Assembly (NCBI RefSeq): GCF_011045195.1
Contig: NZ_CP049199.1
Coordinates: forward strand, 620,001-684,000
DNA: 64,000 nucleotides
Source: Caulobacter soli
GTDB taxonomy: Bacteria; Pseudomonadota; Alphaproteobacteria; Caulobacterales; Caulobacteraceae
Reading direction: 5' to 3'
The position numbers were made by a program, and so were the translations under genes. Shown in pieces: positions 47,416 to 60,377 of the stretch (position 1 is the stretch's first letter; every line of letters begins with the position of its first letter). The notes beneath the pieces were generated by a model. That model was not told the origin of the DNA. It searched no databases and saw only the letters and a program-made list of their open reading frames with translations.

Positions 47416-50400
47416 CTACGGAACCCCAACCTCATCATTCAGCCCCGTGATCTGCGGCTGATCTGTCACGATCCGCACTCGCAGGCCCTTGGCTCCCGAC
47501 GGCGCCTTCAGCGACACCTTGGCTGTCTTCGGCAGCAGGTCCCGAGGCGCGGCCAGGGCCGGGATGGCGGCCGTCGACAGCACCTTGCCGCCCGCGTCCA
47601 CCAGCTCCAGCCGCGCGGGCTTGGCGTCCTGGGCGCCCAGGCTGTGCACGGTGACCGTGACGGTCCCGCCCTTCACCACGACGTCGCCGCGGCCGACGCC
47701 GAGGTCGGCGCGCAGCATCGGGTCGTCGCCGGTCGCCGTGCGAGTCATCTCCAGCACCGTGGTCTGGCGCGGGGCCAGGACCACCTCGAGCGACTTGCTG
47801 CGCTCGAAGGCCAGCGAGCGGCTCTCACCGGCGCCGTCGATCTTGTCGTCGCCGTCGCCATCCACGCCCTGGACGGCGCTCCAGGTTCCGGGCGCGACGC
47901 CCCAGCCGGTCATGGTCGCCGTCACTGGCTGGTCCGACAGGTTGTAGGCCAGCACCTTGAAGTGGGTCGCGCCGGCCGGGTCGAACTGGCCGTCGGCGAC
48001 CAGGATCGCCACGTCGCGGCCGTCGACCGGACCCTTGCCGAACCGCCAGCTGACCAGGTTGCCCGGCAGCATCTGGCCGCGCTTGTTGGCGATGCCGCCC
48101 AGGCGTGAGCGCTGCAGCATGTCGCTGGGGATCTCGACCCGGTCGGACCACCAGTGGCCCTCGGTGTGCATGTACATGTGCTGCGAGGCCGACTGGATCT
48201 CGTCGGCGTAGAGGTTTTCCAGATAGCGCTTGTCGCCGGTCAGCCGCCAGGCGGTGTACTGCTCGGCCCCGCCGCCCTTGGCCGCGGCCTTCAGCACGGT
48301 GTCGCGGTTCTTGTCGCCCAGGCCCAGCATGGCCACGGCGTCGTCGTTGATGTTGCTCAGCGACTTGAGGCTGTTCTTGCCCATCCGCCACTGGATCGGC
48401 GTCAGGTACTTGGGATCGTGCGTCCAGCGCCAGGCCGTCCAGAACACCTGGAACGGACCGTCCGCGCCCGAGCCCTGCAGCACCGTGCCGCCGCGCTCGG
48501 CGTCGGTGCGCCAGTTGATCTCGTTGGGGTACGAGCCGTCCTTGGCCACGTGGGCCAGGTAGCCGTCGGCCAGGCCGATCACCAAGTCGCGGGCGGTCTT
48601 GTCGCCGTTATAGCCGCCGATCAGGATAGCCGGGTGCGTCACGCCGAACGAATAGGGCTTCTGCCACTCCCACGGCCCTTCGCGGTACGACATCGCGCCG
48701 TTGTACCAGTTGGTGTTGAAGTGGACGTGGCCGGCCGGGTTCTTGTCGATGATACGGGGCAGGGCCTTCACCGTGGTGAACAGCCGCTCCACCGCTAGCG
48801 GATCGCCATAGTCGACGTACAGCGCCTCGCTGTTGGCGTTGATGCCCTCCTCGTAGGCGTGCAGCTCGTCGGTGACGATGGTCGACAGGCCGTCGGTGAA
48901 CATGCCGTTCTTGTAGACGGCGTCGGTCAGGCGGTTGAGCGAGGTGGTGATCTTGTCGGGCTGCACGCCCATCAGGGCCACGCCCGGCCATTGCTGGGTC
49001 AGGTCGGTGTCGTCCGAGATGCCGCCGCCGAAGTCGCCGTAGTCGGATTGGCGCTGGTCGATCCACCAGTCGACGAACTGGGTCACCAGCTTTAGGTCCT
49101 GCGTCTGGCGGAACGCCCACAGGGGCGTGCCGGCCGGGGCCTTGGGCTGGTCGAAGGCGGGCCAGCCCTGGCTGCCGAAGGTGATGTCGCCCCAGTATTC
49201 GCGGGCCAGCTGGTTGTCGGGATCCACCCGCAGCAGGTCGGAGATGTCGGCGTAGAGCCGGCGGTACAGGCCCTGACGCTTGGAGGTGGTGTGCTCCTCC
49301 ACCAGGAAGGCCCAGTTGTCCTTCACCTGGTTGAAGCGGTCGGCCACGTGCTCGGCCTTGGCGGCCTCGCGGTCCTTGAACACCAGGCGGATCTTGGTCC
49401 CGTCCAGCGCCTGGGGCCCGAAGTCGGGGCTGTCGGCGGCGATCGTCAGGTACAGGCTATCCGGCGTCAGGATGCGGTCGCGCAAGTCCAGCCACAGGGT
49501 GCGCGCCTCGCCCGGCTTCACCGAGACGCTGACGTCGATCATGTTGCGGCCCGGCCAGATCGGATCCTTGACCTGGATGTTCAGCGGCACGAGGGCGGCC
49601 GGGTCCTTGGCGCCGGCCGCGACCGGCAGGGCGGGCAGGTCGATGGCGATCCCGTCCAGGCCGTCGCGAACGTTCTCCCAGCCATAGGCCCAGTTGCGGG
49701 CCAGGGCCTGGGCGGCCGGGGCGTCACCGAAGCCCGACGGGATCATCACGTGGACGATCGGCAGGCCTTTGGTGATCGGCGCGGCGCGCTTGCGGACCGG
49801 CGCGCCCTCGGGCAGGGCCACCACCGTGGCGCGCTCGCCCGCCGGGAAGCGGCCGGCGACATAGGCGTTCAGGTCGGCCAGGTTCAGATAGTCCGGCGCG
49901 GCGTCGACCCGCACCGTGTAGTTCATCTTGAAGCTGCCCTTGGGCTCTTCGCCGGCGCCGACGTCATAGGCCCAGATCTCCTGGATCGGGGTCTCCTGGG
50001 CGACGTTGGTGAAGGTCAGGGTCCCGCCCTTCAGCGGCTGGGCCAAGGCCGAGAACGTACGGCCCTGGTCCTTGGGACGCGGGCTGAGCTTGACGGGCGC
50101 GCCACCGCCGGCTGGGGTCCAGCTGAGGTCGCCATAGGCCGGGCCCTGGATCTCCAGTTGGTTGATCGGCTCGTCGGGCAGGGACAGCTTCAGGGCCTTG
50201 CCGCCCTCGACATAGACGTTCCAATCCGGCAGCTGGAAATAGTCGTTACGGCCAGGCAGGCGCGAGCGGTTGTAGACGCCGGGCCAGGTGGTTTCGGAAA
50301 TGCCGTCGGTGGCCTTCCACATCCATTCCTTGATGTCCTTGGCGTCGGTGAACTCGACCTTGCGCACCCGGGTGGTCGGGGCGGCCAGATAGGGCGGCAG

Positions 50401-51237
50401 GTCGCCGGGGCGGTTCCAGCCGTAGCGCAGGCGCCAGGCGGCGCGGGCGGCCGGATCGTCCAGGCCGGGGTTCGAGGCGGCGACGGCCGGGGCTTCGTTG
50501 CGCGCCAGGGCGGCCACGGCGGTCGCGTCCAGCGCCTGGTCGTAGACGCGGATCTCGTCCAGCTCGCCGCCGCGCAGGAAGTTGTAGCGGCTCTGTACCT
50601 GGTGCGGGGCGATCACCCGGCCGGCGATGCCGAACTGGTCCAGACCGGCGTCGTAGATCGCCTTGGTCTCCTTCCTGGCCACGGCCTTGCCGTCGACGAA
50701 CAGCTGCACGCCCTTCGTCTCGTCCCAGGTGAAGGCCAGGTGGGTCCAGGCGTCGGCGGCCGGCGGCTTGTCCAGCTTGAACGACACGCGGGTGCGGGCC
50801 AGGCCGTTGTCGGTGACGAAGGCGTCGAAGCCGTGGCCGTTCCAGTCGATGCGCAGGAACGCCATGTCCCAGCTGGTGTGATCGGCGTAACCGACGCGGA
50901 AGATCACGAACGGCGCGACCCCGACCGGATAGCCCGAGCGCCAGAAGAACGACAGCGTCCCGCGCTGGGCCTGGATATTGCCGGGCGCGTTCCACGACAG
51001 CACCCCGTCGTCCTCGGCGTGCAGGCCCTTGCCGGCCTCGCCGGCCGGAACGACCGTGACCTTGTCGGCGAAGTTCGGAATGGCGTCGCCCACCGCGTAG
51101 TCGGCGGAGAGGCCCTTGTCGCCCGAGACGTGGAACAGCAGGGCGGGCTCTTTGACCATCGGAGCCGGGGCGGCCAGGGCCGCGCCCTGGATCAGCGCCC
51201 AGAAAGCCGGAGCCAGGAACAACAGGGACTTCTTCAC
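47416..51237 (-). CDS. Very large secreted LamG-domain protein, putative polysaccharide-active
   Basis: 1273 residues from GTG 51237, with GGGAG 8 bases upstream; the TTG at 51252 is a weaker start. Signal peptide (VKKSLLFLAPAFWALIQGAALA), then a LamG/jelly-roll domain of about 200 residues (HLAFTWDETKGVQLFVDGKAVARKE ... GELDEIRVYDQAL). A middle beta-rich part follows, then a large helical domain (about 690-1060) containing DYGDFGGGISDDTDLTQQWPGVALMG and HVHFNTNWYNGAMSYREGPWEWQKPYSFGVTHP, with an Ig-like C-terminus. The helical part recalls alpha/alpha toroid hydrolases and lyases, but I cannot assign a CAZy family. Periplasmic or extracellular. Confidence 0.75.
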   Translation of the reverse strand: MKKSLLFLAPAFWALIQGAALAAPAPMVKEPALLFHVSGDKGLSADYAVGDAIPNFADKVTVVPAGEAGKGLHAEDDGVLSWNAPGNIQAQRGTLSFFWRSGYPVGVAPFVIFRVGYADHTSWDMAFLRIDWNGHGFDAFVTDNGLARTRVSFKLDKPPAADAWTHLAFTWDETKGVQLFVDGKAVARKETKAIYDAGLDQFGIAGRVIAPHQVQSRYNFLRGGELDEIRVYDQALDATAVAALARNEAPAVAASNPGLDDPAARAAWRLRYGWNRPGDLPPYLAAPTTRVRKVEFTDAKDIKEWMWKATDGISETTWPGVYNRSRLPGRNDYFQLPDWNVYVEGGKALKLSLPDEPINQLEIQGPAYGDLSWTPAGGGAPVKLSPRPKDQGRTFSALAQPLKGGTLTFTNVAQETPIQEIWAYDVGAGEEPKGSFKMNYTVRVDAAPDYLNLADLNAYVAGRFPAGERATVVALPEGAPVRKRAAPITKGLPIVHVMIPSGFGDAPAAQALARNWAYGWENVRDGLDGIAIDLPALPVAAGAKDPAALVPLNIQVKDPIWPGRNMIDVSVSVKPGEARTLWLDLRDRILTPDSLYLTIAADSPDFGPQALDGTKIRLVFKDREAAKAEHVADRFNQVKDNWAFLVEEHTTSKRQGLYRRLYADISDLLRVDPDNQLAREYWGDITFGSQGWPAFDQPKAPAGTPLWAFRQTQDLKLVTQFVDWWIDQRQSDYGDFGGGISDDTDLTQQWPGVALMGVQPDKITTSLNRLTDAVYKNGMFTDGLSTIVTDELHAYEEGINANSEALYVDYGDPLAVERLFTTVKALPRIIDKNPAGHVHFNTNWYNGAMSYREGPWEWQKPYSFGVTHPAILIGGYNGDKTARDLVIGLADGYLAHVAKDGSYPNEINWRTDAERGGTVLQGSGADGPFQVFWTAWRWTHDPKYLTPIQWRMGKNSLKSLSNINDDAVAMLGLGDKNRDTVLKAAAKGGGAEQYTAWRLTGDKRYLENLYADEIQSASQHMYMHTEGHWWSDRVEIPSDMLQRSRLGGIANKRGQMLPGNLVSWRFGKGPVDGRDVAILVADGQFDPAGATHFKVLAYNLSDQPVTATMTGWGVAPGTWSAVQGVDGDGDDKIDGAGESRSLAFERSKSLEVVLAPRQTTVLEMTRTATGDDPMLRADLGVGRGDVVVKGGTVTVTVHSLGAQDAKPARLELVDAGGKVLSTAAIPALAAPRDLLPKTAKVSLKAPSGAKGLRVRIVTDQPQITGLNDEVGVP

Positions 51238-51352
51238 GCGCGCGTCTCCCAAGGCCTAATGGCGTCCGGCTTTTGGTAACCGGTGTCATGGAGGTTTAGC
51301 GCAGGGCGGAGAGCGGGGCAATAAAGCGGGCGTTGAGGAAGGGCTTTGTCGC

Positions 51353-52276
51353 TTAGGCCGCGGCCAGCGCCTGCCCGTCGTCATAGGCTTCCAGCGTCGA
51401 CCGTAGACGCGTCAGGTCCCGCTTGGGCGGCGCGCCGAACATGCGGGCGTATTCCCGGCTGAACTGGGATGGGCTTTCGTACCCGACCTCGAAGGCGGCC
51501 GCCTCGACGTTGAGCCCGCACGAAACCATCAGGCGGCGGGCCTCGAGCAGGCGCAACTGCTTCTGGTACTGCAACGGCGTCGACGCCGTCAGCGCCTTGA
51601 AGTGGCGATGAAAGGCCGAGGGGCTCATGTGGGCGATCGCCGCGAGATCCTCGATCCGGACCGTCTCCCGGAAGCGGCCTCTCAGGCTGTGCATCGCCTC
51701 GATGACGTGCTGCGAGGGGCTGGTCCGCAGCGCCAGCCTGGCGATCTCTCCGCCGTGCGGTCCGGTCAGCAGCCAGTAGCAGATCTCGCGGATGATCCCG
51801 GGGTGGAGCGCCGGGATGGCCTGCGGCGTGTCGAGCAACCGGACGAGGCGGAGCGCGCAATCGGCCAGCGGACCATCGAAGTTCGAGACGAAGACGCCCA
51901 GCCCCGCTTGGCCGCTCGGGATCGGCGGGGTCGGCAGGTCTTCGGCGACGCTGCGCATGATCGCGAAATCCAGTTCGAACATCAGGACCAGGCAGGGCTC
52001 GCCGGGACGGGCCTCGAAGACCTTGCCGATCGACGGAGTCTCCACGCCGATCACCAGCGCCTGGCCGGCGCGATATTCCAGCCGATTGCCGCCGAAGCTG
52101 CCCCACTTGGCGCCCTGGGCCACCAGGCAGACGGCCGGTCTCAGAAGGAGGTGGCTGGCGGGCTTGGGGTGGTCGGAGCGCATGATGGCCAGGCCGTCGA
52201 TCGGGGTCGAGAACAGGCTCTCTCCCCCTTGGCGTTCCGTGTAGCGCAGCAGCGCCTCGGCTAGCGGGCTCACCAT
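51353..52276 (-). CDS. AraC family transcriptional regulator (AraC_N type)
   Basis: 307 residues. N-terminal AraC_N cupin-like domain (SHLLLRPAVCLVAQGAKWGSFGGNRLEYRAGQALVIGVETPSIGKVFEARPGEPCLVLMFELD) and C-terminal double helix-turn-helix (IEDLAAIAHMSPSAFHRHFKALTASTPLQYQKQLRLLEARRLM ... AAFEVGYESPSQFSREYARMFG). Divergent from an SDR gene with 153 bases between, the usual arrangement for an AraC-type activator and its target. Probably an aldehyde- or alcohol-responsive regulator like YqhC; inference only. Confidence 0.93.
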   Translation of the reverse strand: MVSPLAEALLRYTERQGGESLFSTPIDGLAIMRSDHPKPASHLLLRPAVCLVAQGAKWGSFGGNRLEYRAGQALVIGVETPSIGKVFEARPGEPCLVLMFELDFAIMRSVAEDLPTPPIPSGQAGLGVFVSNFDGPLADCALRLVRLLDTPQAIPALHPGIIREICYWLLTGPHGGEIARLALRTSPSQHVIEAMHSLRGRFRETVRIEDLAAIAHMSPSAFHRHFKALTASTPLQYQKQLRLLEARRLMVSCGLNVEAAAFEVGYESPSQFSREYARMFGAPPKRDLTRLRSTLEAYDDGQALAAA

Positions 52277-52429
52277 GATCAGCCTCCGGCGTGAAGCTCC
52301 AAACTAGCTGAGGCGGCAGGAATAGGCAAGAAACCGGCCAGTCCCGGCATTCCGCCTGGCGGTGGCCGGCGCGATGATCTCCCCAGGCGTTCGAGGCCGC
52401 CCGCGCGGCGTCAAAAGGAAAGATCAGTC

Positions 52430-53188
52430 ATGTCAGACGGTAAGATCGCACTCGTCACCGGCGGTAGCCGGGGTATTGGCCGCGATGCGGTGCTGCGCTT
52501 GGCGGCGCGCGGCGTCAGCTCGATCATCACCTACAAGTCCAATCGGGCAGAAGCCGAGGCCGTCGTCGCCCTGGTCGAGCAGGCGGGCGCACGGGCGATC
52601 GCCCTGCGGCTCGACGTCGGCGAGGCGGCGTCGTTCGATGGCGTCGTCGAGCAGGTGCGCCAGGCCCTGGCCGATCTCGGCGCCTCGCGTTTCGATTATC
52701 TCGTCAACAACGCCGGCACCTCGTCCAGCGCCAGCCTGGAGACCATCACCGAGGCCGAGATGGACGCCCTCTACGCCGTGCACTTCAAGGGGCCGATGTT
52801 CCTGACCCAGAAGCTGCTGCCGCTGATCAACGATGGCGGGCGTATCGTGAACATCTCGTCCGGCCTGGCTCGCTTCGCCATGCCAGGCCGGATCGGCTAC
52901 GGCCCGATCAAGGCCGCGGTCGAATCCCTGACCCGCTACATGGCCGTCGAGCTGGCTCCGCGCCGGATCGCCGTGAACGTCGTCGCGCCGGGTCCGATCG
53001 CCACGGACTTCAGCGGCGGGATGGTTCGCGACAACCCGGAGGTCAACAAGGCGATCTCCGCGACCACGGCGCTGGGCCGCGCCGGCCTGCCCGAGGATGT
53101 CGGGCCGGTGATCGCGGGGCTGCTGTCCGACGACTTCGGCTGGGTCAACGCCCAGCGGATCGAAGTCGCCGGCGGCATTCACATCTGA
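52430..53188 (+). CDS. Short-chain dehydrogenase/reductase
   Basis: 252 residues, classical SDR. Cofactor site VTGGSRGIGRDAVLRLA, YLVNNAGTSSSA, catalytic Ser in IVNISSGLARFAM, and Tyr/Lys in YGPIK, with PGPIATDFSGG after it. The short N-terminus and ITYKSNRAEAE after the second strand favour NADPH. Divergent AraC gene suggests regulated expression. Ribosome binding site AAAGGAAAG. Convergent with aroG, 16 bases between stops. Confidence 0.92.
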   Translation: MSDGKIALVTGGSRGIGRDAVLRLAARGVSSIITYKSNRAEAEAVVALVEQAGARAIALRLDVGEAASFDGVVEQVRQALADLGASRFDYLVNNAGTSSSASLETITEAEMDALYAVHFKGPMFLTQKLLPLINDGGRIVNISSGLARFAMPGRIGYGPIKAAVESLTRYMAVELAPRRIAVNVVAPGPIATDFSGGMVRDNPEVNKAISATTALGRAGLPEDVGPVIAGLLSDDFGWVNAQRIEVAGGIHI

Positions 53189-53204
53189 GGCGGGCGGCGG
53201 GAGG

Positions 53205-54296
53205 CTAGCGCGCCGCCCGTCCCGCCCGCACCGCCGCGGCCAGTTCGTCCAGAACCCGCACCGACGTGTCCCAGTCGATGCAGGCGTCGGTGACGGACTG
53301 GCCGTAGGTCAGGGGCTGGCCGGGGACGATGTCCTGGCGGCCGGCCACGAGGTTGCTCTCGATCATCACGCCCATGACCGGCGAGGCGCCGGTGGCCACC
53401 TGGGCGGCGATGTCGGTGACGACGGCCGGCTGGTTCTCGTGGTTCTTGCCGCTGTTGGCGTGGCTGGCGTCGACCATGATGCGCGGCGGCAGGCCGGCCT
53501 TGGTCAGGGCGTCGGCTACCGCCGCGACGCTGGCGGCGTCGTAGTTGGGCGTCTTGCCGCCGCGCAGCACCACGTGGCAGTCGGCGTTGCCCGTCGTGGT
53601 GGCGATGGCGGCGCGGCCCTCCTTGGTCACGGCCAGGAAATGGTGCGGCTGGCTGGCGGCCAGCACCGCGTCGACCGCCACCTTGACGTCGCCGTTGGTG
53701 CCGTTCTTGAAGCCTACCGGGCAGGAGAGGCCGGACGCCATCTCGCGGTGGATCTGGCTTTCGGTGGTGCGGGCCCCGATCGCGCCCCAGGCCACCAGGT
53801 CGGCGATATATTGCGGCGTGGTGACGTCCAGGAATTCGCAGGCGGTCGGCAGGCCCTGGGCGCTGACGTCCAGCAGCACCCGGCGCGCCAGCCGCAGGCC
53901 CTCGTTGATCCGGAAGCCGCCGTCCAGGTCCGGGTCGTTGATCAGGCCCTTCCAGCCCACCGTGGTGCGGGGCTTCTCGAAATAGACCCGCATGATCACC
54001 TCCAGCTCGCCGGCGTGGCGTTCGCGCTCGACGGCCAGGCGGCGGGCGTATTCCAGGGCGGCCTTGGGATCGTGGATCGAGCAGGGGCCGATCACCACCA
54101 CCAGGCGGTCGTCACGGCCGTTCAGGATCTCATGCACGGCGCGGCGCGAATTGCCGACGATCTCGGCGATCGACGAGGTGGCCGGCGCCTCGCCGATAAC
54201 CTGGGCGGGCGGGCTGAGGGTCTGGAGTTTCTGGATCCGCAGGTCGTCGGTGGGGACGGGCAGCGAGACGAGGTGGGCGGTGGTCGAGGAAGGCAT
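53205..54296 (-). CDS. aroG: 3-deoxy-7-phosphoheptulonate synthase, class I (AroG)
   Basis: 363 residues from ATG 54296, with GGAG 8 bases upstream. Condenses phosphoenolpyruvate and erythrose 4-phosphate to DAHP, the first committed step to Phe, Tyr and Trp. Signatures: VVVIGPCSIHDP, MRVYFEKPRTTVGWKGLINDPDLDGGF, GARTTESQIHREMASGLSCPVGFKNGTNG and MVDASHANSGKNHENQP; metal and substrate residues are present. An in-frame ATG at 54350 would add 18 residues but directly follows a terminator T run. The leader at 54297-54492 looks like a ribosome-mediated attenuator sensing aromatic amino acids. aroK and aroB lie about 4 kb away. Confidence 0.96.
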   Translation of the reverse strand: MPSSTTAHLVSLPVPTDDLRIQKLQTLSPPAQVIGEAPATSSIAEIVGNSRRAVHEILNGRDDRLVVVIGPCSIHDPKAALEYARRLAVERERHAGELEVIMRVYFEKPRTTVGWKGLINDPDLDGGFRINEGLRLARRVLLDVSAQGLPTACEFLDVTTPQYIADLVAWGAIGARTTESQIHREMASGLSCPVGFKNGTNGDVKVAVDAVLAASQPHHFLAVTKEGRAAIATTTGNADCHVVLRGGKTPNYDAASVAAVADALTKAGLPPRIMVDASHANSGKNHENQPAVVTDIAAQVATGASPVMGVMIESNLVAGRQDIVPGQPLTYGQSVTDACIDWDTSVRVLDELAAAVRAGRAAR

Positions 54297-54306
54297 GGCG
54301 TGCTCC

Positions 54307-54338
54307 GGGAAATCTTGCGAGGGGGAAATCTTGCGAGG
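54307..54338. repeat. Perfect 16-base tandem duplication in the aroG 5' region
   Basis: GGGAAATCTTGCGAGG occurs twice in direct succession (plus-strand reading) between the attenuator hairpin and the aroG ribosome binding site. One copy would be enough for normal spacing; looks like a recent slippage event. Confidence 0.85.
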
Positions 54339-54351
54339 TCCGGCGGCCATG

Positions 54352-54381
54352 AAAAAAGCCGCCCGGGGAACCCCTGGCGGC
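54352..54381 (-). terminator. Attenuator terminator of aroG (3:4 hairpin)
   Basis: On the minus strand GCCGCC-A-GGGG-TT-CCCC-G-GGCGGC, then TTTTTT: ten pairs with one internal mismatch, followed by a run of six T. It lies 56 bases before the aroG start and 28 bases after the leader peptide stop, where readthrough would be required for aroG expression. Confidence 0.88.
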
Positions 54382-54481
54382 TGGTGAAAGGCGTTTGTGG
54401 CTCTGATTTCAGGCCAAACGATCCCCTCCCGGCGCCAGAGGCGTCGGATAGCTAAAATACCAAAACAGCTGTTGGCTGGCG
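54371..54481 (-). promoter_or_regulatory. Leader RNA with mutually exclusive 1:2, 2:3 pairings (antiterminator)
   Basis: Segment 1 CGCCAG (54476-54481), segment 2 CCTCTGGCG (54433-54441) and segment 3 CGCCAGGGG (54371-54379, the 5' arm of the terminator). Segments 1 and 3 share CGCCAG, and both are complementary to CTGGCG in segment 2. 2:3 gives nine pairs including one G-U and would break the terminator. Segment 1 overlaps leader codons 4-6, so a ribosome stalled on the aromatic codons would cover it and leave 2 free to pair with 3. A further hairpin CGTTTG / CAAACG (54392-54420) spans the leader stop. Confidence 0.75.
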
Positions 54482-54492
54482 GCGAGGATCAT
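54409..54492 (-). CDS. aroG leader peptide rich in aromatic residues (27 residues)
   Basis: ATG at 54492-54490, stop TGA at 54411-54409. The peptide begins MILAASQQLFWYFSYPTP and holds Phe-Trp-Tyr-Phe-Ser-Tyr at residues 10-15, i.e. all three end products of the pathway that aroG feeds. The predicted transcript starts at or within a base or two of the ATG, so translation would be leaderless. Slow translation of these codons when aromatic aminoacyl-tRNA is scarce would favour the antiterminator. Not reported as a family I can name; the assignment rests on position, composition and the paired RNA segments. Confidence 0.82.
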   Translation of the reverse strand: MILAASQQLFWYFSYPTPLAPGGDRLA

Positions 54493-54499
54493 GGCCGCG

Positions 54500-54528
54500 A
54501 CCCTAGAGCCAAGTTGACCGTCTGTCAC
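54500..54528 (-). promoter_or_regulatory. Candidate promoter of the aroG leader
   Basis: Minus-strand GTGACA (54528-54523), 17-base spacer, TAGGGT (54505-54500). The -10 ends 7 bases before the leader peptide ATG at 54492, which predicts a start of transcription on or near the A of that ATG. Confidence 0.6.
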
Positions 54529-54643
54529 GCGTCTTGGCGTCGCGCCCTGGACGGCATCGGCCCGGCGTCAATTCTTCCGATGACTGGCGATGTAGAAAAA
54601 CCGTCATCGAACCTGAATAGACGCGTCACCTGAAAACAAACCG

Positions 54644-54676
54644 GCGCCGCGGACGACCAGTCCCCGCGGCGCTTTT
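54644..54676 (+). terminator. Terminator-like hairpin in the 5' region of the second TonB receptor
   Basis: GCGCCGCGG / CCGCGGCGC, nine perfect pairs, then TTTT, ending 19 bases before the TonB receptor ATG. Nothing on the plus strand upstream needs termination (aroG is divergent), so it is either an attenuator of the receptor gene or the end of a small RNA starting around 54500-54600. Confidence 0.6.
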
Positions 54677-54695
54677 GATATCGGGGGATATCCGA

Positions 54696-57038
54696 ATGCT
54701 GCTGAAGTCCGCCAGCGTGGTGGCCATCGCCGCCTGCCTCATGTTCGCCACTCAGGTTCAAGCGGCCGACGCGCCGGCCGCCCCGGCGGACAGCAGCGAA
54801 GTCGACGCGCTCGTCGTCGTCGGCAGCGGCCAGACCCGCTCGGTCTCGACCCTGCTGCCGTCGAACCTCGAAACGCTGCCGCCCGGGACCAGCATCCAGA
54901 AGTCGCTAAACTTCCTGCCGGGCGTGAGCGCCCAATCGATCGACGCCCTGGGCGTCAACGAGCAGTCGCTGTCGCTGCAGGTGCGCGGCTTCAACACCAC
55001 CCACCTGGGCTACACGCTGGACGGCGTGCCGCTCGGCGACGGCGCCTATAACAACTACAACGGCCTGACCATCAGCCGCGCGCTGATCTCCGAGAACCTG
55101 GGCCGCGCCGATCTGGCGACCGGCATCGCGGGCCTGGGCATCGCCTCGACCAGCAACCTGGGCGGCGCTCTGCTCTACACCTCCAGCGATCCGCACAAGG
55201 ACTTCGGGGTCTCGGTCAACGGCACGGTCGGCAGCGAAGACGCCGCGCGCACCTTCCTGCGTATCGACAGCGGCGAGCACGGCGGTCTTTCGGCCTACCT
55301 CTCGGGGCAGTACAGCCAGCAGGACCTGTTCGTGAACCAGGGCGCCTGGAACAAGTCCACCGGCAAGCAGATCAACGGCAAGCTGGTCTATCGGATCGGC
55401 GACGTCGGCAAGATCACGGCCTTCGCCGACGTGTCGCGCACCAACCAGGCCGACGACGCCTATCTGTCCAAGGACATGCAGTCGCGTCTCGGCTGGGATT
55501 GGGGCGGCTATGCGCCCAACTGGCAGTCCTATCTGGGCGTCGCCTACTGCTCGGTGACCGCCCCGACCGCGCCGACCAAGTGCGTCCCCGCGCCGTCGCC
55601 GCAGAAGAACGCCGACGTGACCTTCACCAACGGCCAGATCCTGCGTAACGACGAGCTGTACTATCTGGCCGGCGACTTCAACGTCACCCCGTCGGTCCTC
55701 GCCCATGTCCAAGTCTACAACCACACCGACAAGGGCGCTGGTAACAACTGGATCGCCGGCTGGTCCACCCAGGGCACGACGTCCACGGCCGACGACGTCC
55801 CGGTGCAGATCCGCGACACGCGCTACACCATCGACCGCACCGGCGTGGTCGCCAGCCTGGGCTGGACCGTCGGCGTCAACCACATCCAGGGCGGCGTCTG
55901 GCTGGAAGACAACACCAGCAGCGCCGCGCGCTACATCTGGACCAACGTCACCGGACCCTTCAGCCTGGCGCGATACCTGGACGGCACGCCGAACACCGCC
56001 CAGTGGGTGCAGAAGACCGACTGGACCACGCAGCAGTTCTACCTCCAGGACACGGTGTCTCTGCTGAACGACGCGCTGAGCATCGATTTCGGCTTCAAGA
56101 GCACCAACGCCAAGTCGGACGCCCAGGCCATCCCCGGCATCGCCAAGGCCGCCCCGCCGGCGTCCACCCAGTTCGCGTCCGGCGTGTTGAAGGCCAAGGA
56201 CAACTTCCTGCCGGAGGCCGGCGTGCGCTGGCGGATCGCCCCCGGGCACGAGGTGTTCGCCAGCTACGCCGAGAACATGGCGATGTTCCAGGGCGGCTTC
56301 AAACTGGGTCCGCAATCGGTGTCGCAATCGGTCTGGGACGCCCAGGGCAAGTACCTGAAGCCCGAGACGTCGAAGAGCTTCGACGCCGGCTACCGCTTCG
56401 TGAGCGGTCCGCTGCAGGTCTCGCTCGCCGCCTATGACGTGAAGTTCCAGAACCGCCTGCTGCAGTACAATCCCTGCCCGACCAACCAGCAGCAGAACCC
56501 CGGCTGCGGCAACTCCTTCCACAACGCCGGCGGCGTCACCAGCAAGGGCGCCGAGATCGGCGTGCTGTGGAAGCCGCTGGAGTGGCTGAGCTGGTACAAC
56601 TCGGCCTCGTACAACAAGTCGACCTACGACGAGAACCTGAACTGGTGCACGACCACCTGCGTGATCAAGGCCACGGCCGGCAAGCAGCAGGTGGACACGC
56701 CCAAGGAGATGGCGTCGAGCGTGGTGAGCCTGAACCGGGGCGGCTTCTCGGCCTCGCTGCAGGGCAAGTACACCGGCCGTCGCTACTATACCTACACCAA
56801 CGATCAGAGCTTCGGCGCCGTCACCACCTTCGATCTGGGCGTCGGCTACAAGTTCGACGCCGTCAGCTTCATGAAGGGCGCGAAGGTCGGGCTGAACGTC
56901 ACCAACCTGACCAACAAGCGCTACGCCTCGAACTTCGACAGCAGCGTGTTCGCGCCGGATGACGCGACCGGCAGCCTGCTGGTCTTCCACGCCTCGGCGC
57001 CGCGCCAGGTCTTCGCCACGGTCGGCTTCGACTTCTAA
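54696..57038 (+). CDS. TonB-dependent receptor (2)
   Basis: 780 residues from ATG 54696 (MLLKSASVVAIAACLMF), with GGGGAT upstream. Signal peptide to QVQAAD, TonB box-like EVDALVVVGSGQ, plug (LQVRGFNTTHLGYTLDGVPLGDGAYNNYNGLTISRALISENLGRADLATGIAGLGIASTSNLGG), then the barrel, ending RQVFATVGFDF. The shorter size and the plug are of the FecA/ferri-siderophore-like or phytate/phosphate type. The next gene encodes a phytase-like esterase, which supports uptake of an organophosphate or a related ligand; unproven. Confidence 0.95.
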   Translation: MLLKSASVVAIAACLMFATQVQAADAPAAPADSSEVDALVVVGSGQTRSVSTLLPSNLETLPPGTSIQKSLNFLPGVSAQSIDALGVNEQSLSLQVRGFNTTHLGYTLDGVPLGDGAYNNYNGLTISRALISENLGRADLATGIAGLGIASTSNLGGALLYTSSDPHKDFGVSVNGTVGSEDAARTFLRIDSGEHGGLSAYLSGQYSQQDLFVNQGAWNKSTGKQINGKLVYRIGDVGKITAFADVSRTNQADDAYLSKDMQSRLGWDWGGYAPNWQSYLGVAYCSVTAPTAPTKCVPAPSPQKNADVTFTNGQILRNDELYYLAGDFNVTPSVLAHVQVYNHTDKGAGNNWIAGWSTQGTTSTADDVPVQIRDTRYTIDRTGVVASLGWTVGVNHIQGGVWLEDNTSSAARYIWTNVTGPFSLARYLDGTPNTAQWVQKTDWTTQQFYLQDTVSLLNDALSIDFGFKSTNAKSDAQAIPGIAKAAPPASTQFASGVLKAKDNFLPEAGVRWRIAPGHEVFASYAENMAMFQGGFKLGPQSVSQSVWDAQGKYLKPETSKSFDAGYRFVSGPLQVSLAAYDVKFQNRLLQYNPCPTNQQQNPGCGNSFHNAGGVTSKGAEIGVLWKPLEWLSWYNSASYNKSTYDENLNWCTTTCVIKATAGKQQVDTPKEMASSVVSLNRGGFSASLQGKYTGRRYYTYTNDQSFGAVTTFDLGVGYKFDAVSFMKGAKVGLNVTNLTNKRYASNFDSSVFAPDDATGSLLVFHASAPRQVFATVGFDF

Positions 57039-57058
57039 GCGGACGCTCCCACGTTCGT

Positions 57059-57095
57059 GGATGGCGGGAGGGAACCTTGGTCCCTCCCGCCATCC
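57059..57095 (+). terminator. Long hairpin between TonB receptor and esterase genes
   Basis: GGATGGCGGGAGGGA / TCCCTCCCGCCATCC, a 15-base perfect stem with a short loop, no T run after it. It may stabilise the upstream mRNA end or cause partial termination, reducing expression of the esterase. Confidence 0.7.
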
Positions 57096-57122
57096 GCCGT
57101 GATTTTACGGGTAGGACACTCC

Positions 57123-58661
57123 ATGCCGCGCCGTCTCGCGATCCTGCTCGCCACCGCCTTGGTCAGCCTGACCGCCGGCGCGGCGCACGCCCAATCCCAG
57201 ACCTACAAGTCCCAGACCTATACGACCAAGCACTGGACCAACGCGGCGGGCGACGAGACGGCGACCCTGGACGGCCAGGTCTTCGTCAATCACGGCCTGG
57301 TCGGCGTCGGCCGGCTGCCGGCCGCCACGCGCGATTTCCGGGATGAAACCCTGGGGTCGTTCTCGAGCATGGCGCTCGACGCCAAGTCCTGGCGACGCCT
57401 GAAGGACGGGTCCTATACGGGCGTCTTCTGGACCCTGCCCGACCGGGGCCCCAACAATATCGGCGGCCTGGACACCACCGACTACGCCAACCGCATCCAC
57501 ACCCATCGGTTCACGTTCAAGCCCGCCGACTCCAAGGGCGGCGGCAAGCTGACCGTCACCCCCACCGGCGGCTTCCTGCTGCTGGACCAGACCGGCAAGC
57601 CGTTCACCGGCAAGGATCCGGGACCGGGAACCCTGACCCGCGACGGGATCACCTATCCGTCGCCGGCCTCGGGCGAGGGCGCGGGCCGCATCAGCCTGGA
57701 CTCGGAGGGCCTGGCCCGCCTGCCCGACGGCGGCTTCTATGTCTCCGACGAGTACGCCGCCGGCGTCTATCTGTTCGACCGCACTGGCCGGCAGGTCGGG
57801 GCGATCGCGGCCCCGCCGGCCCTGGCGCCGATGGCGGACGGCAAGCTGAACTTCTCGGCCGCCAAGCCGCCGGCCACCGGCCGCCGCAACAACCAGGGCC
57901 TGGAGGCCGCCGCCGTCACGCCCGACGGGACGCGGCTGATCACCATCCTGCAGAGCGCGACCGTGCAGGACACCGCCGGCGCCGACGCGGCCACCCGCAA
58001 CAACACCCGCATCCTGGTCTACGACATCACCAAGACCCGGACGCCCAAGGCGCCGATCGGCCACTACGTGCTGCAACTGCCCACCGTGCGCCAGAAGGCC
58101 GACGGACAACCGGCCGACGTGACCGCCGCCCAGTCCGAGATGGTGGCGCTGAACGATCACCAGTTCCTGGTGTTGTCGCGCGACGGCAACGGCCGAGGCA
58201 CGGGCAAGCCCTATGACGGGGTGTTCAAGAGCATCTTGCTGGTCGATACGCGCGGGGCGACCAACCTGGCCGGAACGCCCTACGAGCAGACCGCCAAGCC
58301 GGTCGCCAAGGCCGGCGCGCTGGTCGACGGCATCGCGCCGGTCAAGCAGGTCGAGCTGGTCAACTTCCTCAACCCCGTCCAGCTGGCCAGGTTCGGCATG
58401 AACCTGTCGACCACGCCGTCGACGCCCTACACTCTGTCGGAGAAGCTGGAGGCCCTGGCCCTGGCGCCCGCCCTGGATCCGAAGGCGCCCAACGACGTCT
58501 TCCTGTTCGTGGGCAACGACAACGATTTCGAGACCGCCAAGGGCCGGGTCAACGGCCAGGATTTCGACGCCAGCCTGACCAATGCCGACGGCTCCGGCGT
58601 GGGCGACAACGACAATGTCATCCTGGTCTATCGGCTGACGCTGCCGACGCGGCCTCGCTGA
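57123..58661 (+). CDS. Secreted esterase-like protein of the phytase family (PF13449 type)
   Basis: 512 residues from ATG 57123 (MPRRLAILLATALVSLTAGAAHAQ). Signal peptide, then a beta-propeller-like domain. GSFSSMALDAKSWRRLKDGSYTGVFWTLPDRGPNN, GRISLDSEGLARLPDGGFYVSDEYAAGVYLFDRTGRQV, NNQGLEAAAVTPDGTRLITILQSA and LFVGNDNDFETAKG fit the calcium-binding esterase-like-activity-of-phytase family. Exported to the periplasm or outside. It follows the TonB receptor by 84 bases and is likely co-transcribed. Substrate could be an organophosphate or a phosphodiester. Confidence 0.88.
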   Translation: MPRRLAILLATALVSLTAGAAHAQSQTYKSQTYTTKHWTNAAGDETATLDGQVFVNHGLVGVGRLPAATRDFRDETLGSFSSMALDAKSWRRLKDGSYTGVFWTLPDRGPNNIGGLDTTDYANRIHTHRFTFKPADSKGGGKLTVTPTGGFLLLDQTGKPFTGKDPGPGTLTRDGITYPSPASGEGAGRISLDSEGLARLPDGGFYVSDEYAAGVYLFDRTGRQVGAIAAPPALAPMADGKLNFSAAKPPATGRRNNQGLEAAAVTPDGTRLITILQSATVQDTAGADAATRNNTRILVYDITKTRTPKAPIGHYVLQLPTVRQKADGQPADVTAAQSEMVALNDHQFLVLSRDGNGRGTGKPYDGVFKSILLVDTRGATNLAGTPYEQTAKPVAKAGALVDGIAPVKQVELVNFLNPVQLARFGMNLSTTPSTPYTLSEKLEALALAPALDPKAPNDVFLFVGNDNDFETAKGRVNGQDFDASLTNADGSGVGDNDNVILVYRLTLPTRPR

Positions 58662-58671
58662 GACGGCCCGC

Positions 58672-59781
58672 CTAGACCGCGCCTTCCTCGATCAGGAAGT
58701 CCCGCAGCGCCGCGCGGTCCACGTCCTTGGCCACGAAGGCGTCGCCGATCCCGCGCACCAGGATGAAGGTCAAAAGGCCGCCCTCGGCCTTCTTGTCCTG
58801 GGCGCTGTGGGCGATCAGGGCGTCGGCGCTGAACGGCTCGGAGCGGATGTCCGACAGCTGGGTCGGCAGGCCGGCGGCCTTGATGGCGGCCTCGGCGCGG
58901 ACGGCGTCCTGGGCCGAGCACAGGCCCTGGCGGACCGAGAAGCGGAAGGCCTGCGCCATGCCCAAGCCCACGGCCTCGCCGTGCTTGAGCGCGTCGCCGA
59001 AGCCCATCTCGCCCTCGACCGCGTGACCGAAGGTGTGGCCGAGATTCAGCAGGGCGCGGCGGCCGGCCTCCTTCTCGTCCTCGGCGACGATCTCGGCCTT
59101 CATCTCGACCGAGCGGCCGACCGCACGGACCAGGGCGGCGGTGTCGCGCTCCAGCACGGCCTGGACGTGGGTCTCCAGCCACTCGAAGAAGGCGAAGTCG
59201 CCCAGCAGGCCGTACTTGATGATCTCGGCGTAGCCACAGGCCAGCTCGCGGGCGGGCAGGGTGGCCAGGATGTCCAGGTCCGCCAGCACCAGGCGCGGCT
59301 GGTGGAAGGCGCCGATCAGATTCTTGCCGCGCGGGGTGTCGATGGCGGTCTTTCCGCCGACGGACGAATCGACCTGGGCCAGCAGGGTGGTGGGGATCTG
59401 GATGAAGTCGATACCGCGCTTGTAGATCGCCGCGGCGAAGCCGGTCAGGTCGCCGACCACCCCGCCGCCGAACGCGATGACCATGTCGCCGCGCTCCAGG
59501 TTCAGGGCCAGCAGGCGGTCCGACAGGTCGGCCAGGCCTTCGAAGCTCTTGGTCTCCTCGCCGGGCGGCACCAGGATCACCTCGGTCGCGATCCCCGCGT
59601 GCTCCAGGGCGTTGGCCAGCCGCTCGCCATGGTGCTCGCCGACGATGGTGTCGGTGACGACCGCCACCCGCTTGCGCTTGAGCAGCGGCGCGATGAACTC
59701 GCCCGCGCGGTCGATCAGGCCCGTGCCGACGACCACGTCATAGGCGCGCGCGCCCAGGCCCACGGGGATGGTGGTGATCAC
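58672..59781 (-). CDS. aroB: 3-dehydroquinate synthase AroB
   Basis: 369 residues, GTG start sharing a 4-base overlap with the aroK stop. Converts DAHP to 3-dehydroquinate, the second shikimate-pathway step, using NAD and a divalent metal. [61 protein letters not shown] is the classic signature. Metal ligands fall in [12 protein letters not shown] (Glu), [13 protein letters not shown] (His) and [11 protein letters not shown] (His). Downstream gene of the aroK-aroB operon. Confidence 0.97.
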
Positions 59782-60377
59782 TCGAACTCGCTTTCTTGGG
59801 GCTCGCTTTCGGAAGGCGACAGGTGGCTCTTGAGGGCCTGGATCACGGCGTCGACCGCCACGCCGTGGGCGGTGTCGCCGGTCTCGACCGTCACGTGGGC
59901 TTCGCGATAGGCGGGATAGCGCAGGGTGGCGTGCTCGCGCAGCACGTCCATCGGGTCGCGGCCCTTCAGCAGCGGCCGGCCGTCCTTGCGGCCGACGCGG
60001 CGGGCCAGCAGCTCCAGATCGGCCTTCAGCCAGACGGCCACGGCCTTGGACTTAATCAGGGCGCGGGTCTCGGGATTGACGAAGGCCCCGCCGCCGGTGG
60101 CCAGCACGTGGGCCGGCTCGTCCAGCAGCCGGGCGATCACCCGCCGCTCGCCGTCGCGGAAGGCCGGCTCGCCCATCTCGGCGAAGATCTCGGGGATCGA
60201 GCGGCCGGCGGCGGCCTCGACCTCGTTGTCGGCGTCGCGGAACGGCAGGTCCAGCGCCGTGGCCAGGCGCCGGCCCACGCTGGACTTGCCCACGCCCATC
60301 AGCCCCACGAGCACGATGGTCTTGCGGCGCAAGGCGGCCCTCGGGTCGGGGCTGGAAAGGGCGGTGTCATCGTTCAT
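59778..60377 (-). CDS. aroK: Shikimate kinase AroK
   Basis: 199 residues from ATG 60377. ATP-dependent phosphorylation of shikimate. P-loop [10 protein letters not shown] (residues 24-32), shikimate-binding [47 protein letters not shown] and the lid [13 protein letters not shown] 15-residue N-terminal extension and an acidic SEPQESEFE tail are normal for alphaproteobacteria. Coupled to aroB by GTGA. No attenuator-like element precedes it. The open frame running to 60965 is not coding. Confidence 0.95.

Follow-up and report, generated by a model that had tools for sequence, protein, structure and literature searches.

Attenuation of the trp and phe operons is classical, and the Trp codons of trpL are part of its segment 1. 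In rhizobia, the leader trpL/rnTrpL, located 5' of trpE, has a leaderless peptide and is concerned with Trp only. aroF of C. glutamicum has an upstream leader peptide that contains Phe-Tyr-Phe (PMC4046766); this leader, named aroR and containing a Tyr codon, is described in a review as responding to Phe limitation and not to Tyr (PMC11802643, citing Neshat 2014). Merino's database contains putative tyrA-linked attenuators, including one at Vibrio aroA-I-alpha-Y > tyrA (PMC1173090). For C. crescentus, an attenuator at ilv and a leader ORF at trpS have been described, and aroG is unmentioned in the main text of that paper (PMC4117421). No aroG leader appears in the available text of a premature-terminator survey (PMC2965389) or a regulon survey (PMC5343134), and searches of the open-licence PMC literature listed no paper on a proteobacterial aroG leader. 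Rfam, Pfam and NCBIfam hold no family for the aroG leader, so such leader peptides may go unannotated. The class of mechanism is known (trp, phe, aroR-aroF), and the distribution of the proteobacterial aroG leader is, as far as searched, undescribed in the literature.

In the window (the whole stretch of 64,000 nucleotides that was analysed) a putative attenuator precedes aroG. The Rfam models Phe_leader and Trp_leader gave no match in window positions 50000-60000 at E values up to 5, and among eight other loci Phe_leader matched only L118, with 24.9 bits compared to a gathering score of 55 (E 3.9). By its description, aroR-aroF of C. glutamicum is similar in having a peptide with aromatic codons 5' of a DAHP synthase gene and in being ascribed to attenuation; it differs in being actinobacterial and in its Phe-Tyr-Phe run, with Trp unmentioned. 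With E. coli trpL and pheL the aroG leader shares an ORF with regulatory codons, mutually exclusive 2:3 and 3:4 pairings and the same folding before segment 4 is made. It differs from them in the positions of segment 1, which is 5' of the regulatory codons, and of segment 2, which is within the ORF (68/68 leaders), in that the gene encodes the common first step, and in a run that combines up to three amino acids. The rhizobial trpL/rnTrpL resembles the aroG leader in being alphaproteobacterial and in its leaderless leader peptide, which for aroG is the most likely state (see below). The attenuators in Merino's database are, like the aroG leader, predicted 5' of a proteobacterial DAHP synthase gene, but they belong to another gene lineage and operon, and the available text describes no leader peptide for them (PMC1173090).

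The leader and its gene neighbourhood

The gene 3' of the leader (53205..54296, minus strand) was identified as a type I DAHP synthase, aroG, by its matches to TIGR00034 (E 8.5e-159) and PF00793 (E 8.6e-96). The ATG at 54296, which has GGAG at 54306-54303, six bases 5' of it, is the likelier start and is separated by 55 bases from the end of the T-run of the leader. An in-frame ATG is also present at 54350, directly 3' of the T-run, and would extend AroG by 18 residues. On the other side of the leader a TonB-receptor-like gene (54675-57038, PF00593) is oriented divergently. aroB, encoding 3-dehydroquinate synthase, and a shikimate kinase gene are located next to each other at 58672-60365 (minus strand), some 4 kb away from aroG.

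AroG is not the sole DAHP synthase, as a type II enzyme is also present in 26/26 sampled genomes of the genus. The type I family was found above the cut-off in 13/27 genus genomes, and C. vibrioides, a named control genome, has a member of it. At the type II DAHP synthase loci, read in 25 of the 26 genomes, no aromatic leader comparable to that of aroG was observed; the densest frames at these loci, with four F/W/Y in eight residues and starting with GTG or TTG, were rejected as leaders.

The earlier note had reported a 27-codon frame with FWYFSY at codons 10-15, a stop codon at 54411-54409 and a terminator, and all of these coordinates were verified on the minus strand, on which all features of the leader are located. 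The leader peptide ORF (54492-54409) extends from the ATG at 54492-54490 over 27 sense codons, MILAASQQLFWYFSYPTPLAPGGDRLA, to the TGA, and its regulatory codons TTT TGG TAT TTT AGC TAT occupy 54465-54448. Segment 1, CTCGCCGCCAG (54476..54486, core CGCCAG at 54481-54476), can pair with segment 2, CCTCTGGCG (54441-54433), for which segment 3, CGCCAGGGG (54379-54371), is the other possible partner. Segment 3 forms the 5' arm and segment 4, CCGGGCGGC (54358..54366), the 3' arm of the intrinsic terminator (54352..54381), which consists of a hairpin (54381-54358, -20 kcal/mol) and six T (54357-54352). In the extended antiterminator (54371..54441), the 2:3 pairing is accompanied by pairs of 54432-54423 with 54381-54391 and by an inner hairpin (54420-54392). 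Segment 5, GCCGCCGG (54340..54347), follows 3' of the T-run and is complementary to segment 4.

A -35-like element, GTGACA (54523..54528), and a -10-like element, TAGGGT (54500..54505), are separated by a 17-base spacer, and the latter ends 7 bases 5' of the leader ATG. A simple consensus scan detected neither a promoter nor a terminator at the leader; the promoter-like boxes differ from the E. coli consensus, and the terminator stem contains an A-G mismatch. In relatives of the family in which the promoter-like box pair was recognised, it ends 6-10 bases 5' of the ATG. TGAC was found at -40 to -26 from the leader ATG in 34/68 distinct leaders, all but one of these being alphaproteobacterial, and a Shine-Dalgarno-like match in 3/68. 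Since the distance between boxes and ATG is nearly fixed, transcription most likely starts at the ATG or no more than about 2 bases from it, and the leader peptide mRNA would, judged from this spacing, most likely be leaderless. This fits the claim of a transcript start upstream of or at 54492, with the boxes as the observed element and the start itself deduced from them. Leaderless mRNAs are common in C. crescentus, in which 375 have been mapped (PMC4117421).

Distribution of the leader among aroG loci

The family of the window was taken as Caulobacteraceae and its class as Alphaproteobacteria. A match to this aroG was found in 33/149 genomes of the family, and the leader is located at the same place in all 30 aroG loci read (30 of the 33 matches), so that the leader peptide and the stem positions are conserved in relatives, as had been supposed. 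Among the 23 distinct leaders of the family, codon 10 is Phe in 23/23, codon 11 TGG in 23/23, codon 12 Tyr in 20/23 and codon 13 Phe in 22/23. When the 149 family genomes were searched for the FWYF pattern TTYTGGTWYTTYRGCTAYC with one mismatch allowed, matches were obtained in 80/149; the 24 exact matches were all at aroG leaders, and the one-mismatch matches away from aroG were mostly one recurring sequence.

A covariance model (R1), built from the 23 leaders of the window's family only, was run on 289 genomes of the class. Its best eight genomes (E 2.7e-41 to 1.6e-6) were exactly the eight of the 289 in which this aroG was identified by a protein search. In one of them (G352) leader and aroG are on different contigs, and in another (G442, locus L073) the peptide has a single Phe-Tyr pair and the gap to aroG is longer. 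With weaker matches included, 71/289 genomes have a match at E up to 0.1. Ten loci with such weaker matches (L074-L083) and four stretches (L183-L186, L186 repeating L074) were inspected and rejected as leaders, as none had a comparable aromatic run.

An aroG alignment scan of named genomes matched at least 589 stretches, 586 of which were confirmed, and the best 80 loci were kept, so that the sample leans to close relatives. The leader test asked for an ATG frame of 15-45 codons with at least three F/W/Y in seven residues, followed by a hairpin and a T-run, and was passed by 46/80 of these named loci (the best 80 of at least 586). Grouped by record title within these best 80 of at least 586 loci, the alphaproteobacteria (13/13) and Xanthomonadales (7/7) passed throughout, as did 25/30 of the Burkholderiales or unplaced betaproteobacteria and 1/30 of the remaining groups. 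Example leader peptides are MSAKFYFYFFWYLRPLADREG from Burkholderia, MNANRSFYFWYYGFPMPLAEEGVRSP from Xanthomonas and MITVATSYFWYFSYDSSLAAGGSRSI from Bradyrhizobium. Overall, 81/116 aroG loci passed compared to 3/580 dinucleotide shuffles and 0/116 reverse complements, which bears out that the layout is beyond chance. In a record titled Anaerolineae (L156), the frame MSRYFSFFSWYGYFAAGQVERAVVRPRDV is located 5' of aroG with no terminator by the rule of the test; this contig is possibly mis-binned.

A tree was calculated from 94 of the scanned aroG proteins (quick method, midpoint root). Its deepest split (support 82) separates a side with 61 rows with and 7 without a leader, two of the 61 labels having been set by hand, from a side with the leader in 0/26 rows, which contains enterics, Rhodocyclales and others. 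The alphaproteobacteria and Xanthomonadales form a 34-row clade (support 99) with the leader in 34/34, L096 being labelled by hand. On this tree the leader label changes 7 times, compared to a mean of 27.5 in shuffles. Sequence comparison thus shows the leader frame with its aromatic run, the terminator and the 2:3 pairing, as well as the place of the promoter-like boxes and the association with aroG. On the tree the leader marks one aroG lineage, which comprises alphaproteobacteria, Xanthomonadales and Burkholderiales, and it is absent on the enteric side. Its distribution extends far beyond the Caulobacterales, the order considered in the earlier note.

Alternative pairings of the leader RNA

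In the 23 family leaders, 90% of the cells of the 2:3 pairing are paired compared to 37-60% for slid versions, and its covariation score was reached by 0/500 shuffles. Two of the nine pairs change on both sides, which 104/500 shuffles reach as well. As a bare duplex, 2:3 was better than shuffles (p below 0.05) in 32/68 leaders, and in the window alone it was no better than shuffles (p 0.24). When folded before segment 4 exists, the antiterminator beats shuffles (p below 0.05) in 33/68 leaders with a median z of -1.86, and in 67/68 half or more of segment 3 is paired with upstream bases. In the window, z was -3.41 for the antiterminator fold (100 shuffles) and -2.91 for the whole leader region (200 shuffles). 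The proven attenuators E. coli trpL and pheL, used as controls, gave at this stage 0.71 (z -2.15) and 0.88 (z -3.52) of segment 3 paired, respectively.

In a swap test, the pairing energy with the own partner was compared to that with partners from other loci, a comparison in which relatedness remains. For 2:3 this resulted in p 0.003 (60 leaders), with p 0.001 in beta and others and p 0.48 in alphaproteobacteria; for 1:2 the values were p 0.16 for all, p 0.03 for beta and others and p 0.86 for alphaproteobacteria. In the 23 family leaders 82.6% of the 1:2 cells are paired, and 1:2 and 3:4 taken jointly are 88.1% paired with no co-variation; 1:2 beats shuffles in only 17/68 leaders. Six of the eight counted pairs of the terminator stem never vary in the 23 family leaders, and the terminator shows no co-variation in the family because its stem hardly varies. 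It is concluded that both folding and phylum-wide co-variation speak for the antiterminator 2:3 and that 1:2 is without co-variation support in alphaproteobacteria. The earlier note had let segment 2 pair with both segments 1 and 3, and of this 2:3 stands, while 1:2 is mostly pairable without co-varying in the alphaproteobacteria. The comparison that it had proposed for Caulobacterales gave an intact aromatic run and a 2:3 pairing that, by the swap test, co-varies across the phylum and not within the alphaproteobacteria alone.

Equilibrium folds with segment 4 present kept the antiterminator in 19/68 leaders when a ribosome was placed at the first aromatic codon. The antiterminator was obtained at every aromatic codon in 3/68 leaders and at none in 41/68, and for the window only a ribosome at Phe10 preserves it. 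Among the controls, trpL fails at both Trp codons and pheL keeps the antiterminator at 5 of its 7 Phe codons. Since the proven trpL also fails, this test was given little weight, yet it was counted against the attenuator. With segment 4 present the fold mostly returns to the terminator, and the model therefore needs an antiterminator that forms first and persists, as is held for that of trp. In the window, 22 bases separate the segment 2 core from the stop codon; by the estimated footprint, a ribosome at the stop codon leaves this core just uncovered, so that termination under plenty would lean on 1:2. A link between a late stop codon and a stronger 1:2 hairpin was considered and found unsupported (Spearman -0.20, p 0.11, 66 leaders).

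The complementarity of segment 5 was significant compared to shuffles in 24/68 leaders, comprising 19/38 from alphaproteobacteria and 5/30 others, four of which are from Xanthomonadales; for the window alone, p was 0.13. In the swap test, the own partner gave -14.88 and other partners -13.80 kcal/mol in alphaproteobacteria (p 0.001, 30 leaders), and no signal was obtained in betaproteobacteria and others (p 0.43, 23 leaders). By an energy rule, segment 5 is present in 28/33 scored rows of the 34-row clade and in 2/26 outside it. As RNA polymerase must read past the terminator before segment 5 is transcribed, this segment cannot decide termination. A guess is that, in many leaders of alphaproteobacteria and some of Xanthomonadales, its pairing with segment 4 may lock the leader in its open state.

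Proposed mechanism and competing explanations

The leader is regarded with high confidence as a predicted ribosome-mediated, trp-type transcription attenuator of aroG. The same arrangement is found before such genes in many bacteria, and it is therefore very probably a real switch that senses aromatic shortage. Translation, stalling, read-through, the amino acids that count and the role of segment 5 are proposed from this arrangement as follows. Transcription would begin at the ATG of the leader, and translation of this leaderless frame would proceed while it emerges. With ample charged tRNA, the ribosome would pass the aromatic codons and reach the stop codon, segment 2 would be covered or paired with segment 1, and 3:4 would form, so that RNA polymerase halts at the T-run. 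Under a shortage of charged Phe-, Trp- or Tyr-tRNA, the ribosome would stall at codons 10-15 and keep segment 1 off segment 2, and the free segment 2 would catch segment 3 before segment 4 is made, so that transcription continues into aroG. Segment 5, made after read-through, could then pair with segment 4 in many leaders of alphaproteobacteria and in some of Xanthomonadales.

The aromatic run contains Phe in 68/68 distinct leaders, Tyr in 67/68 and Trp in 50/68. On the aroG tree, Trp is present in the run of 41/59 scored leaders and absent from 18/59, with 6 changes, which indicates that a three-way sensor is common and that Trp was lost or gained several times. The proposal that a single aroG leader reads all three end products thus holds for the anatomy: as such, a putative three-way Phe/Trp/Tyr sensor is real in the window and common elsewhere, and it does not extend to the 18 leaders in which Trp is absent. 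The Phe codons of the leader ORFs are 157 TTT and 39 TTC, compared to 56 TTT and 349 TTC in the aroG matches of these loci, counted over roughly their first 333 codons, a bias whose P value is not to be trusted since related leaders were counted apart. Five window genes contain 0 TTT and 104 TTC, and both regulatory Phe codons of the window (codons 10 and 13) are the rare TTT. TTT and TTC normally share one tRNA; the preference for TTT may slow reading or keep the loop unpaired. A more specific proposal is that of an inherited five-segment attenuator, which would mark the type I DAHP synthase lineage of alphaproteobacteria and Xanthomonadales, integrate Phe, Trp and Tyr, sense Phe via the rare TTT and use segment 5 as a lock; this is tentative and, taken as a whole, rather doubtful.

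Among the competing explanations, a plain terminator, or an sRNA or peptide acting in trans, would make the control of aroG secondary. The short transcript rnTrpL of Sinorhizobium acts elsewhere in this way, and the predicted leaderless short transcript of about 141 bases resembles such RNAs. The leader, however, accompanies aroG across families, and the antiterminator pairing is kept and co-varies; moreover, the upstream gene is divergent, and the terminator therefore does not serve it. Such a role is considered unlikely.

Even less probable is nascent-chain arrest, as exhibited by TnaC, an arrest peptide that responds to a free compound. Here, the peptide FWYFSYPTPLA would stall the ribosome on a free aromatic compound, and codon starvation would not be the signal. 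In the family, the peptide is strongly conserved past the aromatic run and prolines follow, as might be expected for an arrest peptide, but the codons of PTPLA overlap segment 2, which can explain their conservation. Outside the family it is mainly the aromatic run that is kept, in varying order, and the residues after it differ. In L024 and L030, a single base is inserted 3' of the FWYFGY codons, so that the end of the peptide is shifted and PTPLA altered, whereas the bases of segment 2 are kept, which favours RNA pairing over peptide sequence, and L020 has lost YPT from the leader peptide. A conserved riboswitch or T-box, in which translation would have no role and with which the stable fold of the leader region would agree, can practically be dismissed, because window positions 50000-60000 gave no Rfam match at the leader (E up to 5), none of 12 weak Rfam matches in eight diverse loci attained the gathering score, and the aromatic codons are kept while their wobble positions vary.

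With trp-type attenuation as the preferred reading, a single RNA switch, which could sense up to three aromatic end products, appears to control the gene for the entry step of the shikimate pathway in several proteobacterial groups, and enteric relatives of the same aroG are without the leader. The leaders with and without Trp, and with and without segment 5, form a natural series for the integration of several amino acids by one leader.
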